A stretch of DNA of 41,665 nt from Gemmatimonadota bacterium (GTDB lineage Bacteria; Gemmatimonadota; Gemmatimonadetes; Gemmatimonadales; GWC2-71-9), in assembly GCA_029262155.1 (NCBI GenBank), contig JAJCZW010000069.1, positions 1-41,665 on the forward strand. Reading direction: 5' to 3'. How positions within the stretch are numbered: position 1 is the stretch's first letter; each line of letters begins with the position of its first letter. This document shows, one piece after another, positions 34,245 through 41,625 of the stretch. The translations under genes were made by a program, and so were the position numbers. The notes under the pieces were generated by a model, which saw only the letters and a list, made by a program, of their open reading frames with translations, was not told the DNA's origin and did not search any database.

Positions 34245-35236
34245 TCCCATTCAACGCACACCCCTTTGGTGGTGAACACCATTGGGATGAGTTGCCCACC
34301 TTCACGTACCATGGCTGTCTCGATCGCCTGTCGATTCTCAGTCAAGACCAAGATCGACCCACCAGCACCCGCACCAACAGCCTTCATTCCTAACACACCG
34401 ACGTCTCGGGCGACATGCTCAAGTCTCGCCATCAGCGGTGTGCGCATCCCGGCGTCCAGTGCCTGCTGGGCGGCCCAGTTCTGATCGAGCAACGCTCCGA
34501 CCTGGGCGAGGTCTCCATCCATTAATGCCTCGGCCATCGCATACCCCGTCTCCCTCAGACGGAGAAGCGCACCAGTCGTTCCTGGATCACCGGTAGCATA
34601 ACGCCCCATGACCCGCGCGATCGTATCGCCGGACACACGGGATTGCCCGGTGTAGACGAGCACAAGTGCGTCGCCCAACGCCTCTTCGACGCCAGAAGCG
34701 AACACCTTGGAGTCAACCGTGACACCGTCCTCCCCGAAGACAAACCGATGGCACCCTCCAAACGCTGCCGCATATTGATCCTGCCGACCGCCGGGATGAC
34801 GTGCCTCTGCCGATTCCAAGCGATAGGCTTCCTCGGCGATTTCCCGCGGATCCAAGGCAACACCCTGCTGTGCCTGGAGTGACGCGACCAGGGCCACCCC
34901 AAGTGCCCCGGACGAACCCAACCCAGACCCCGGCGGCACCGTTGCAGCGGAACGGAGTGTGCCTGCGCCGAATGGCCGGGCCCGCACAGCAACCCGGTGT
35001 AGATCGAGCGTTCCGTCCAAGACAAACGGCGTGGCCTCATCGAGACGAATACTCTGATCCAGGTCTTCCGACCGCAGAACCCGGTCAGTCCCACCAAGAT
35101 CGATCGTCACAGCTGTCCGGTGGTCGATCGCAATATTCACGACCACGCCACCTTCCCGATCGGCGAAGGGCGGGACGTCGGTCCAACCTCCCGCGAGATC
35201 GATTCGAACAGGAGCGGTCGCCACAACCCGCTTCAC
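34241..35236 (-). CDS. GHMP-family sugar kinase
   Basis: ATAPVRIDLAGGWTDVPPFADREGGVVVNIAID and PPGSGLGSSGALGVALVAS (GHMP ATP motif); resembles D-glycero-D-manno-heptose-7-phosphate or fucose-type kinases. Confidence 0.88.
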   Translation of the reverse strand: MKRVVATAPVRIDLAGGWTDVPPFADREGGVVVNIAIDHRTAVTIDLGGTDRVLRSEDLDQSIRLDEATPFVLDGTLDLHRVAVRARPFGAGTLRSAATVPPGSGLGSSGALGVALVASLQAQQGVALDPREIAEEAYRLESAEARHPGGRQDQYAAAFGGCHRFVFGEDGVTVDSKVFASGVEEALGDALVLVYTGQSRVSGDTIARVMGRYATGDPGTTGALLRLRETGYAMAEALMDGDLAQVGALLDQNWAAQQALDAGMRTPLMARLEHVARDVGVLGMKAVGAGAGGSILVLTENRQAIETAMVREGGQLIPMVFTTKGVCVEWD

Positions 35237-36690
35237 GGAACGATATGCCAGGATGTGACGGTCGGGAGCTCGCCTCGGAGATCCATCTGTACCCCCTGGA
35301 CCTGCCGCCGCTTCCCTTGGACTCCGCGGGCATGATACAGAAAGGTCGCTGGGACATCTCGCCGAAACTGGTCGAGCGGATCGTCGCCGGCTACCTGCCC
35401 GGTCACCTCGAGGAGAGGTGCCAGGTACCCCAGATCGAGGTCTCCGGGAACGCCGAGGATGGCGGCATCAAAGTCGGGGCGAACGGCGTAGATTCGATCG
35501 AGAAACGCCGAAAGTTCCATCTGGCGGATGCGAACAATCACGCCGACCTTGGCGAGTTGGGCTTGGACCAGTTGCTCCAGTGCCACCTCGCCACTGCCCA
35601 CCGTCAGCAACTCAAACTCGAGGCTCTCTCCCGCAAGCAGGGCACGGGCACTATCGGGCAGGAATGGTGTCGGCTCCGGGAGTTCGGGCAGGAGTTCTGT
35701 CGGGACCGGACCCGAGGCCGGAGTCCCAAACCCGAATGCGATTCCGTTGACGATCTCGGGGCGATCCAATGCCAACATGATCGCTTCGCGGCGTCGACGA
35801 TCGTCAAAGGGAGGTCGGCGGGTGTTGAATATCAACGATACGGTAAAAAGAAGTGGATAATCCAGCACCTCAAGTTGTGGATGGCGGCGCACAAACGAGG
35901 CGTGCCCCGGTTGGATTCCGGCGAAATCCAATTCACCCGACGTCAGTGCCGCTAGTTTCGTTGTCGGTTCGTCCACGATGGCGACTACGAGCCGTTGCAG
36001 CAAGGGGGGACCCCCCAGGGCATCGGCGAAGTCATCGTTCCGTTCAAACACCCACCGACGGTTTGGTTCGTGGGAAACAAATCGAAATGGACCATTCCCG
36101 ATCGGCGCCTGATTCCAAGGAGCGCGGCGGAGGTCGCCATGGGCGATCGCGCCGAGTAGGTGAACCGGAACGATTGCCAAGTCGCTGAAGACGTCAGGTA
36201 TACCACGCTGTGGGCCCGAAAAATCAAGGATCACCGTTGAGTCATCGATAGCGTCAACCCGAACCAACTCTTCCAAGTCAGAGGTTCGGGGATACCCCGT
36301 GGCCGGATCCTGTGCTGTCTGGAGAGTAAACTCGACATCTTGGGCTGTGGTCGGAGCGCCATCGTGCCAACGTACGCCCCGGACCAGATGGAACGTCAAT
36401 CGAGTCCGGCTCGTTGACCACTCCCAGGATCGTGCGAGATACGGACGTAGCGTGAGGGTGGAATCGTAACGCACCAACGTTGTGAGGAGAACGTAGCGCT
36501 GCACCTGTTTGGCCAAAGGATGGGTCGTTACCAACGGATTGGGACTTTGGAGGTCGGCCCCGGAGGCCAACAACACCGTGCCCGGTCTCCGATCGGCGGG
36601 CTGACACCCCAGGAAGCTTCCCAGTAACACGAGAACACCCATTCCACGATAGGCTACGGCTCCAGCAGGACGCGTCGTCGGTTTCCGCAT
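35233..36690 (-). CDS. ABC transporter substrate-binding lipoprotein, family 5 (Opp/Dpp type)
   Basis: Lipobox VLLGSFLGC; SWEWSTSRTRLTFHLVRGVRWHDGAPTTAQDVEFTL is the SBP_bac_5 signature; ATGA overlap with the GHMP kinase. Confidence 0.93.
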   Translation of the reverse strand: MRKPTTRPAGAVAYRGMGVLVLLGSFLGCQPADRRPGTVLLASGADLQSPNPLVTTHPLAKQVQRYVLLTTLVRYDSTLTLRPYLARSWEWSTSRTRLTFHLVRGVRWHDGAPTTAQDVEFTLQTAQDPATGYPRTSDLEELVRVDAIDDSTVILDFSGPQRGIPDVFSDLAIVPVHLLGAIAHGDLRRAPWNQAPIGNGPFRFVSHEPNRRWVFERNDDFADALGGPPLLQRLVVAIVDEPTTKLAALTSGELDFAGIQPGHASFVRRHPQLEVLDYPLLFTVSLIFNTRRPPFDDRRRREAIMLALDRPEIVNGIAFGFGTPASGPVPTELLPELPEPTPFLPDSARALLAGESLEFELLTVGSGEVALEQLVQAQLAKVGVIVRIRQMELSAFLDRIYAVRPDFDAAILGVPGDLDLGYLAPLLEVTGQVAGDDPLDQFRRDVPATFLYHARGVQGKRRQVQGVQMDLRGELPTVTSWHIVP

Positions 36691-36784
36691 AGTCCTAACC
36701 TATGCACCTCCCCAAGTGATGCACTAGCCAGCTGTCCCCAAACCCTCCCCCCCCCGTTCCCCGACCGGTCAGTAGATTGCATAG

Positions 36785-37762
36785 ATGGGTTCACACCTGG
36801 CTGTCCGGTCGCTACGCGGCATCGTCGTGGTGTTTGGCGTGGTGGCCCTGACTTTTCTTCTCCTCCATCTGGCGCCGGGCGACCCGGTCAGCCGACTCTT
36901 GGGACCTCGCGCCACGCCGGAACAGGTGGAGGTCCAGCGGCATGCCCTCGGGCTCGACAAACCAGTCCCCATACAGTTTGGGCGATGGATTGGACGTGCC
37001 CTCCAGGGCGACCTGGGAACCAGCATTGCGACCGGTCGGCCGGTGGGCGAGATGCTCATGGCGGCGTGGCCCTACACGGCGGGGTTGGTCACGTTGTCGC
37101 TCGGGTTGAGTTATCTGCTCGGCGTGGTCATTGGTGCCACCCAAGCTTTAACCCGAAAGCCCGCGATCGATTCGGCGCTCACTGTCACGACACTCACCCT
37201 CTTCGCGATGCCAGCCTATTGGCTTGGTCTCCTTCTCATCTTGGTCTTTACCTATGGACTCCGCTGGCTCCCCGCTTTCGGTGCCCACGGCCTCGATGCC
37301 GACTTCTTGACCCCGTCCGGCCGAGCCTACGACACCATCCGGCATCTCGCACTCCCGCTCATCACGCTCACGCTCATCGGTATCGGGGGTATCGCTCGAT
37401 ATGTTCGAGGCGGCGTCGTTGACTTAGGCAACGCGCCGTTTCTCGTCGCGGCAGCGGCACGGGGCTGTACTCGCCGGCGCGTGATCGTCCGTCATGCCAT
37501 CAGGAATGCCCTGATCCCGGTTGTGACCCTGCTCGGCCTCTCGCTTCCGGCCCTCTTCTCTGGAACGGTCTTCATCGAGGTCATCTTTGCCTGGCCCGGT
37601 GTTGGCCTTCTCATGGTCCAAGCGGTGAGTGCACGCGACTACCCCGTGGTCATGGCTGCCACCACGATCAGCGCGATTCTTGTGATCGTGGGCACCCTCC
37701 TCGCCGACCTGATGACCGCCTGGGTCGACCCGCGGGTTAGAATACCAAGTGCGCGTGCCTAA
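36785..37762 (+). CDS. ABC transporter permease, DppB/OppB type
   Basis: RSLRGIVVVFGVVALTFLLLHLAPGDPVSRLLGPRATPEQVEVQRHALGLDKPVPIQFGRWI...ARGCTRRRVIVRHAIRNALIPVVTLLG (EAA loop). Confidence 0.94.
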   Translation: MGSHLAVRSLRGIVVVFGVVALTFLLLHLAPGDPVSRLLGPRATPEQVEVQRHALGLDKPVPIQFGRWIGRALQGDLGTSIATGRPVGEMLMAAWPYTAGLVTLSLGLSYLLGVVIGATQALTRKPAIDSALTVTTLTLFAMPAYWLGLLLILVFTYGLRWLPAFGAHGLDADFLTPSGRAYDTIRHLALPLITLTLIGIGGIARYVRGGVVDLGNAPFLVAAAARGCTRRRVIVRHAIRNALIPVVTLLGLSLPALFSGTVFIEVIFAWPGVGLLMVQAVSARDYPVVMAATTISAILVIVGTLLADLMTAWVDPRVRIPSARA

Positions 37763-38579
37763 CTCTTCCCCCGCTCGGATGTGGGTTGGTGGCGTCCTTC
37801 TGGTCGGCATCCTCGCCATCGCCCTCCTCGCACCGTGGATCGCGCCAGACCCAACCGGACAACGCGACGTCGTCGCGACCCGATTCCTATCACCACTCAC
37901 CACCGATATTCACGGTTTCTTCCATCTGCTTGGCACCGATCGGCTCGGCCGCGACGTGTGGGCTCGATTGGCATGGGGGGCACGCATCTCACTCGGCGTC
38001 GGAACCCTTGCCGTGCTAATCTCCTCTGGCTTAGGGTTGGCAATTGGAACGGTAAGTGCGGTGTACCCGCGCGGGGTTGGGACCGCCTTGATGGCGCTCA
38101 CCGATTTCGCCCTCGCGATTCCACGGATCATTTTATTACTACTCTTGGCAGCACTCTGGCAACCGAGCGCGGTACTGGTCATCGTGGTGCTGGGCGCGAC
38201 GGGGTGGATGCCGATCGCGAGATTGGTCTTTGCCGAGTCGCGCGGAGTGTTGGCCCGGCCGTATGTTGATGGGGCGGTTGGGCTCGGAGCATCGCGCCGA
38301 CGAGTGCTGCTCCGACATGTCATGCCCAACGTCCGCACCCCTGTTATCACCGCCTCGGTCCTCGGTATGGCCAACGCGATCACACTTGAGGCCGGTTTGA
38401 GTTTCCTGGGACTCGGCGTCCAGCCTCCGACGCCAAGTCTCGGCGCGATGATCGCCTCGGGACGAGAGACCATGGTCAATGCCCCGTGGTTGGGGGTCTT
38501 GCCCGGGCTCCTCTTGATACTGACGGTCCTTGCGCTGGCCTTGGTCAGCGATCGAGCCCGCCAAACAGCGGTTGGGTAA
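37749..38579 (+). CDS. ABC transporter permease, DppC/OppC type
   Basis: LLGTDRLGRDVWARLAWGARISLGVGTLAVLIS...GLGASRRRVLLRHVMPNVRTPVI; GTG start overlaps the DppB-like gene by 14 bp. Confidence 0.94.
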   Translation: MRVPNSSPARMWVGGVLLVGILAIALLAPWIAPDPTGQRDVVATRFLSPLTTDIHGFFHLLGTDRLGRDVWARLAWGARISLGVGTLAVLISSGLGLAIGTVSAVYPRGVGTALMALTDFALAIPRIILLLLLAALWQPSAVLVIVVLGATGWMPIARLVFAESRGVLARPYVDGAVGLGASRRRVLLRHVMPNVRTPVITASVLGMANAITLEAGLSFLGLGVQPPTPSLGAMIASGRETMVNAPWLGVLPGLLLILTVLALALVSDRARQTAVG

Positions 38580-38635: not shown

Positions 38636-41044
38636 TCAGCGCAAGTCGCGCTCCTGGTGCCCACCGCCAACATAGTCCGGGATCCAGTGACAGAGCGGCG
38701 GTACCATGACCTCCTCCCACAATCGGTGCAGGTCGGTGGCATTGGGCGTGACAGAGAATGGTGCCAGCGCCAAGGTCAGACTGTCTGTTCCTACGCATTG
38801 AGCCTCGGGAGTCGGTGTGGGCCAGCCGGCGTGTCCCGGACGGGTCCACAAATCAGCGCGACTTAACTGTCCGACCATCCGGAGAATAGTTACCTCCATT
38901 CGGCCATCCGAAGTCCATTCCGATTCGAAAAACCCTGGGGCGAAGAGCCCAAGTCCGCGCCCGCTGCGGTGGACAGCCAACCACCGATGCGTCGGAGCGG
39001 TTGCGAACAGTACCTCAGTACCCGCGACCACCATCTGCACGGGAACACGCTCCGTGGTCCCGAGCTGGCTCCCCGCCAGAGCGTTGGGTGCAGGCGAAAG
39101 CCCGGTCGGAAACCCCAGGCGCAGGCGACAACACACCGCGCGGTTCAGTACCTGCATCCGAAGACGGATCAGACGACTGGTGTCGGTGATCGAGAGACCG
39201 ATCCACCCATCCACCGTACCATGACCCGGAATCAGGAGAGCCACTCGGATCTCCAGACCGCCGATCAGCGGGCCCGGTGCGATCTGTCGACAACTCACCA
39301 AACGCGACTGGACCGGGAGCGCGCCCTCCTGTGGATTCTTCGGCGGGCAGTAGGTGTAGGTATCCCCACCATCGGGGTCGACGCTCCAAGCAGCTAGTCC
39401 GCGGTAGATCTCTCGAGTATGACGATCCCGCACCGTCAATGTTCCATCATCGTCGACCTTCACCCGGAGAAACTGATTCGTCATCGACCGATCCGTGACA
39501 GACACCGTTCCGGTCAACTGCGGAGTCGATGGCGTGACGGAAACCTCCAAAGCCTGCACCTGCTTCTTGGTGGAGTGGCGGTGCCGAAACGCGACCCAGA
39601 CCCGGTCGACCTCTCGGGCCAACGGATAGTGACGGTCGGCATCGACACGTTCCACCTCTCGACTTGTCTTGAGAATCTGCAGAGGAATGATGTGGCCGGA
39701 GGGATCCACCAGGGCGGTAGGGACAGGGTACGTCTTTTCAGGTGCAGGCGCAGACTGCGATGGCGGGCCGACCCGAATCGGTTGACGCGGCACCGTTACC
39801 GACGCTTCCACTATCTGCTCTCCCCGGTCGCCGCCGGTGGGGTCCCACACAATTAGACTGGGACGAACCGCGGTCGGATGGGCACGGGCATGATCGGGGT
39901 CGTGTCCAAGGAGTCGATGGAGACTGCGTTTGAGGAGGGTTGCTCCACTGTCGCGCACACCGTTCATGCGCTGGGTCATCGCCCGAGCGACACCGTCGGC
40001 ACAACATCCACCGAGGGTGTCGTGGAAGTGGGTGGAGAGGAGGGTACGCCAGAGGGCATCGACCAGTGGCAGTTGCGATGGCGTGCCGGGAGTCTCTGCC
40101 AGCGCAACCACCGGCTCGACGATCCGCTCCAACCAGAGTTCGAGCGATGCACTACGCCGTTTGAGCGGTGCTCGGGTCGACAGTGTCCCCTGCAGGGTCC
40201 AGGTATATCCTCCCGAATCACGGAGTGCCCCGGTGCGAATGGCGAGGCTCTCCCGGTCGGCATCGGCCTCCACCGCTGCGAAGAACTCTTCCAACGTCGA
40301 GATGCGAAACTCGCTGGTCGGCTCCAGGCAGGCCAGCGCGCGTTGGAGACCGGGAATATCCGGATGGACCCAGTGGTGATCGGCCCCCAGAAAGAGGGCA
40401 ACATGCCGGGTGCTGGCACGCGGCATGATTTCCTGGCAGACCGCATCCCAACTTCTGCTCAGGTGGCTTCCAGTCTGGAGGCTTGAGCCGACCTCGTAGC
40501 CCGATGGCGGAAGGTGATAGACCAGCACCTCGCCACCTCCTGGCCCGCACCAGCGGAAAAGGTCCTGGGAAGAATCCGTCCCCCGCCAGACCACGGCATG
40601 ACCAATCCCCACCTCGTTCAGCAGGTCGGGCGTGTCGCCAGTGTGCCCGAACGCATCTGGGAGGTAGGCCACGCCAGGTTCTCTTCCACCGAGACGCACG
40701 CCATCTCGCATGCCGAGCCGAAGATTCCAGCGCATCGCATGGGCCGACGGCACTTGGTTGTCAGCGAGCACATACGAGGGCCCCGTGACGAGCCGACCTT
40801 CCCGCACGAGTTGGGTTACAGTCGGCCGTGCGTCCGGGCGCAGAGACAGATAGTCTTCGAGGAGAATGGATTGGCCATCGAGATGAAAGGTACGAAGGGC
40901 AGGATCAGCAACGAGTCGCGCAACCAGATCATCCAGACAGGCGACCAAGTCAGGGCGGAAACTCGCCTCGGTCCGATACCACTCTCGGTCCCAGTGGGTA
41001 TGGGGGATCAGGTGAAAGATCAGCGACGGCACTCTTGGGGTCAC
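38636..41044 (-). CDS. Glycoside hydrolase family 38 alpha-mannosidase
   Basis: FHLIPHTHWDREWYRTEASFRPDLVACLDDL, FHLDGQSILLEDYL, YLPDAFGHTGDTPDLLNEVGIGHAVVWRG. GTG at 41044 overlaps the upstream TGA (GTGA). Confidence 0.92.
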   Translation of the reverse strand: MTPRVPSLIFHLIPHTHWDREWYRTEASFRPDLVACLDDLVARLVADPALRTFHLDGQSILLEDYLSLRPDARPTVTQLVREGRLVTGPSYVLADNQVPSAHAMRWNLRLGMRDGVRLGGREPGVAYLPDAFGHTGDTPDLLNEVGIGHAVVWRGTDSSQDLFRWCGPGGGEVLVYHLPPSGYEVGSSLQTGSHLSRSWDAVCQEIMPRASTRHVALFLGADHHWVHPDIPGLQRALACLEPTSEFRISTLEEFFAAVEADADRESLAIRTGALRDSGGYTWTLQGTLSTRAPLKRRSASLELWLERIVEPVVALAETPGTPSQLPLVDALWRTLLSTHFHDTLGGCCADGVARAMTQRMNGVRDSGATLLKRSLHRLLGHDPDHARAHPTAVRPSLIVWDPTGGDRGEQIVEASVTVPRQPIRVGPPSQSAPAPEKTYPVPTALVDPSGHIIPLQILKTSREVERVDADRHYPLAREVDRVWVAFRHRHSTKKQVQALEVSVTPSTPQLTGTVSVTDRSMTNQFLRVKVDDDGTLTVRDRHTREIYRGLAAWSVDPDGGDTYTYCPPKNPQEGALPVQSRLVSCRQIAPGPLIGGLEIRVALLIPGHGTVDGWIGLSITDTSRLIRLRMQVLNRAVCCRLRLGFPTGLSPAPNALAGSQLGTTERVPVQMVVAGTEVLFATAPTHRWLAVHRSGRGLGLFAPGFFESEWTSDGRMEVTILRMVGQLSRADLWTRPGHAGWPTPTPEAQCVGTDSLTLALAPFSVTPNATDLHRLWEEVMVPPLCHWIPDYVGGGHQERDLR

Positions 41045-41625
41045 TCCTCCCAGGCGCGAATATCCTTTTCGTCCTCGACGCCTAATGCGTCCGCCACTCG
41101 GTTGATGTAGTTGAAGTAGGACACGACCTGTACACAATCGTGGATGGCGCGATCATCGAAGCCGTGCTGCCGTAATCGCTCGAGGTTATCGGGGTCCATC
41201 GCATCGGGGGTGGCGGTCAGCTCGGCCGCAAAGTCCGCCAGCGCGCGGTCCGCCGGTCCTAGCGGGGCCGTTCGCCAATCCCGGGCGATCGCCTGCACCA
41301 TGGCATCCGCCTCCGCTTCGTCCGTCAATCCCCATCCATCGGCGACCTCAGCCCGGAGGTCGTGTGCGTGCGATCGTAGTCAGTATCGACAGTGGTTGTC
41401 ATGGGAGACAACGCAGGCTAATAGCTCCCGTTGGACGCGAGACAACCCCGATGGCCCAAACATCACCGTCGTGTACAACGACAGCGAGGCCTTCATCGTC
41501 CGTGGGTTCTGACTCATGATCGACACGATGTTCCAGATGCGTCCTGCCCGGGTGATGGCGGCATCATACTGGCTCTTGAGAAACCCGGTAGCCTCCTGCA
41601 ACGACACCACCTTGATCCACGGCAT
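41041..41625 (-). CDS. AhpD/carboxymuconolactone-decarboxylase-family peroxidase-related protein, candidate selenoprotein (Sec82 at UGA 41380..41382)
   Basis: Continuous frame on the minus strand: MPWIKVVSLQEATGFLKSQYDAAITRAGRIWNIVSIMSQNPRTMKASLSLYTTVMFGPSGLSRVQRELLACVVSHDNHCRY[TGA]LRSHAHDLRAEVADGWGLTDEAEADAMVQAIARDWRTAPLGPADRALADFAAELTATPDAMDPDNLERLRQHGFDDRAIHDCVQVVSYFNYINRVADALGVEDEKDIRAWEE. UGA replaces the second Cys of the AhpD-type CxxC-x3-H motif. Total 194 residues. Confidence 0.82.
41343..41362 (-). promoter_or_regulatory. Candidate bacterial SECIS stem-loop
   Basis: Minus-strand RNA after UGA: 17 nt, then CGACCUC-CGGGCU-GAGGUCG: perfect 7-bp stem, 6-nt loop with G at loop position 2, apical loop starting 25 nt after UGA. 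Confidence 0.72.

Follow-up and report, generated by a model that had tools for sequence, protein, structure and literature searches.

Two open reading frames lie one after the other on the minus strand near one end of the window, by which we mean the whole 41,665-nucleotide stretch of Gemmatimonadota DNA that was analysed. Does the TGA between them end a gene, or does it encode selenocysteine? The original prediction, made from the sequence, was that the two frames form one gene for an AhpD-like selenoprotein. Our analysis supports this reading through the position of the TGA, conservation of the protein, aligned TGA codons in relatives, a SECIS-like hairpin and the presence of selA and selB. 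The gene very probably encodes a TIGR01926 AhpD-like selenoprotein, in which UGA codon 82 is predicted to be decoded as selenocysteine by means of the hairpin and Cys79 and Sec82 are predicted to form a redox pair.

Reading frame, family and active site

The minus strand contains a single frame that opens with an ATG at 41625, closes with a stop codon (41043..41041) and is broken only by the TGA at 41382..41380. The claim that the two ORFs are one frame (41625..41041) split by a sole internal TGA is therefore borne out, and the 17 codons said to precede the nominal TTG start of the second ORF are present between the TGA and that start (LRSHAHDLRAEVADGWG). The ordinary stop of the gene is also TGA. 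In a profile search, the read-through protein matched TIGR01926 (peroxidase-related) at 141.4 bits over residues 2-187, above the curated cut-off of 81.8 bits. It also matched PF02627 (CMD domain) at 37.6 bits, with the match spanning the TGA. The upstream half alone reached PF02627 at just 20 bits, and the downstream half alone gave no family match in the profile search.

Table 1. Features of the window discussed in the text
Feature	Position	Strand	Remarks
Predicted AhpD-like (TIGR01926) selenoprotein gene	41041..41625	-	194 aa plus stop; from frame and profile scores
In-frame TGA, codon 82, predicted selenocysteine	41380..41382	-	From frame and conservation in relatives
Cys79, first redox residue of CxxU	41389..41391	-	Invariant, 80/80
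Glu67, relay Glu of AhpD by spacing	41425..41427	-	80/80; spacing from PMC3141380
Tyr81, equivalent to Tyr50 of PA0269	41383..41385	-	80/80
His86, relay His	41368..41370	-	80/80
Putative SECIS hairpin	41343..41362	-	Arms 41362..41356 and 41349..41343; loop CGGGCT 41355..41350
GH38 alpha-mannosidase gene	38636-41032	-	Next gene; starts just past the selenoprotein stop
Peptide-transporter genes	35233-38579	+ and -	Two permeases (+), family 5 solute-binding protein (-)

The TGA falls at the second redox cysteine, as claimed, being the fourth residue of C-R-Y-[TGA]-x3-H. The AhpD-like site C-x-x-C/U-x3-H with its upstream Glu is complete and consists of Glu67, Cys79, Tyr81, the predicted Sec82 and His86. 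The spacing of these residues equals that of the PA0269 relay, which is formed by Glu36, Cys48, Tyr50, Cys51 and His55 (PMC3141380). PA0269 and the M. tuberculosis AhpD share the relay spacing Glu-Cys-(Tyr/His)-Cys-His with the window protein, although both have Cys in place of the predicted Sec, and the helix topology of the M. tuberculosis AhpD differs. The AlphaFold2 model of the window protein is all-helical, with a mean pLDDT of 87.6. Its nearest solved structures are the AhpD-like proteins 6k40, 3c1l and 2pfx, which were also returned by a sequence search. The fold and the CxxC-x3-H region of 6k40 (D. radiodurans), 3c1l, 2pfx and 2oyo align with the window protein over nearly its full length, but these proteins are ~30% identical to it, and those aligned with it residue by residue have a Cys where the window gene has the TGA.

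The neighbourhood gives no functional clue, with no conserved neighbour adjoining the gene in relatives. The recurrent neighbour families in relatives are peptide-transporter permeases located several kb away.

Conservation of the TGA in relatives

Homologues were expected to have either Cys or an aligned TGA at position 82. In genomes belonging to the same family and order, the 30 best loci all have TGA at the aligned codon, as do 80/80 of the loci from named genomes that are closest to the clade of the window gene; in both sets the protein is conserved on either side of it. Conservation beyond the TGA, proposed earlier as a check, is thus present. The 80 loci are the best 80 of the 464 that protein patterns retrieved, and rarer Cys forms lower in the ranking may therefore be missed; four records are common to the 30-locus and 80-locus sets. 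Judged by their titles, the 80 loci are mostly from Chloroflexota and Gemmatimonadota, with a few from Latescibacterota, Planctomycetota and others. Among the matches listed from 395 sampled genomes of the phylum, every full-length one above 290 bits has a single TGA; those free of a stop along most of the protein score ~157 bits or less. Candidate CxxU AhpD-like selenoproteins prove to be common in Gemmatimonadota and Chloroflexota genomes.

The 30 same-order loci fall into three subclades, of the HAHDLRAEV, HHGAGLR and SHAEFLR types. One relative (L032, genome G005) has an additional in-frame TGA near residue 22, besides the C-x-Y-TGA site, which may be an error or a second Sec codon. The genome that contains the window has a second AhpD-like gene on another contig (C153, L062:9474-10010), with the TGA at the same codon and the motif CRY[TGA]LVHH. 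In a phylogenetic tree, the window gene groups with mostly Chloroflexota sequences at weak support (86/79), while the relatives of the genome are Gemmatimonadota. Given this grouping, horizontal transfer of the gene is possible.

A putative SECIS hairpin

A hairpin with the stem GACCTC/GAGGTC begins 17 nt past the TGA, a distance that fits a bacterial SECIS element. It consists of 7 pairs and a 6-nt loop starting with CGG or CGT. RNAalifold recovered the same hairpin unprompted, with 97.8% of cells paired compared to 19-44% when slid. Codon choice within the hairpin is restricted in the 80 loci: Leu90 is CTC in 79/80, Glu93 is GAG in 80/80, and Arg91 is either CGT or CGG, whereas Glu67, outside the hairpin, is GAG in 50/80. 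A matched-position codon test was used because the loci are related and gene-wide codon usage does not control for position. The mean normalised codon entropy was 0.30 for the six hairpin codons and 0.80 for 56 positions elsewhere in these genes where conservation of the amino acid reaches 80% or more (Mann-Whitney p 8e-5, with the hairpin codons picked after the folds had been inspected and the YFNY rows anchored in only 56/80 loci). Residue-matched values were 0.04 versus 0.69-0.83 for Leu and 0.00 versus 0.95 for Glu; the codon entropy of Ala92 in the loop is ordinary.

Five loci, representing approximately three events by the tree, have U-A in place of C-G at pair 3 of the stem, and two relatives break this pair. 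In the alignment test, the count of doubly changed pairs was no higher than in shuffles. The window hairpin folded singly was no better than shuffles (z 0.01), and an Rfam search of the window gave no match. Codon constraint and position, more than covariation, carry the case for the putative SECIS element. A post-TGA hairpin is also present in the three subclades (L016-L045), with different sequences and shifted positions.

Selenocysteine pathway genes and alternative explanations

The original prediction named selA, selB, selD and tRNA-Sec (selC) as genes to look for in the same genome. The first two were found by profile search, an intact selA at 515 bits and an intact, full-length selB of 617 aa at 310 bits. 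The search for the other two came up empty in this draft, which is 90% complete and consists of 259 contigs; the best match for selD was ThiL and the best matches for tRNA-Sec were Leu/Ser tRNAs. The majority of relatives have both tRNA-Sec and selD. Among 101 genomes, selD is present in 51/52 with a TGA-bearing homologue and in 34/49 others (Fisher p 6e-5, from counts compiled by hand from match lists and ignoring genome kinship, with G057, which has just a partial match, counted as TGA-less). The sole TGA-bearing genome among the 52 without a detected selD is the one that contains the window. When the table was cut down to the genomes that had any match at all, the p value was 8e-6, a figure on which we do not lean. 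The missing selD and tRNA-Sec plausibly reflect a gap in the draft; a search for selC through its conserved gene neighbourhood, intended to reveal such a gap, found mixed neighbours in relatives.

The two missing genes could instead mean that this is a true selenoprotein gene whose decoding was lost in its own organism together with selC and selD. We consider this very unlikely, as selA and the full-length selB are intact, the second TGA-bearing AhpD-like gene is intact, and the downstream frame and hairpin are unchanged. It is more improbable still that suppression inserts another amino acid at the UGA or that the two halves are separate proteins: TGA also serves as the ordinary stop of the gene, the hairpin is under constraint, the TGA-bearing homologues are associated with Sec genes, and the downstream half alone matches no family. 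The single draft assembly and the position of the gene, just 40 bases short of the contig end, might point to a Cys gene altered by a sequencing error or by a private nonsense mutation. This explanation is refuted by the same TGA in all close relatives, across many independent assemblies and phyla, and has next to no probability left.

Discussion

A selenoprotein of this kind is already catalogued, and what is new is the window gene as a member. A 2026 review includes an 'AhpD-like protein, TIGR01926, CxxU' in its list of selenoprotein families, citing earlier metagenome work (PMC13188914), and AhpD-like CxxU proteins were described in the Sargasso Sea and GOS sets (PMC1088965, PMC2398784). 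The remark that AhpD-like selenoproteins had been reported before was therefore right, down to the exact family model, and together these sources place the window gene in a known kind. It shares the family model and the Sec position with the reviewed family; the text of the review does not name Gemmatimonadota or Chloroflexota, whereas the window gene's own clade, HAHDLRAEV, was followed here across both phyla. The Sargasso Sea and GOS proteins, likened to the window gene by description, are filed under COG2128 and pfam02627, while the window gene belongs to TIGR01926. In a full-text literature search for Gemmatimonadota and selenoprotein, neither term occurred in the title or abstract of any match.

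In the selenoprotein reading, UGA codon 82 would be decoded as selenocysteine, aided by the downstream hairpin, which SelB presumably recognises. Cys79 and Sec82 would form a redox pair located where a helix begins, and Glu67, Tyr81 and His86 would act as a proton relay. Judging from Cys homologues, the likeliest activity of the enzyme is the reduction of hydroperoxides or of a disulfide partner, and Sec would be the more reactive partner of the pair. More tentatively, and at somewhat less than an even chance, the HAHDLRAEV clade could be a Sec-only subfamily without a surviving Cys form, in which a SECIS element within the coding sequence dictates both codons and residues. In five relatives, Val94 is replaced by Ile (GTC to ATC) alongside a change of the Asp89 codon from GAC to GAT, and the RNA pair is kept.

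From the aligned set and its hairpin, a gene model that allows read-through could readily be built, and the same material would serve to test how strongly an in-gene SECIS element constrains the protein. Gene callers split the gene in two, and a predicted antioxidant-type selenoenzyme is consequently missed in many Gemmatimonadota and Chloroflexota genomes.
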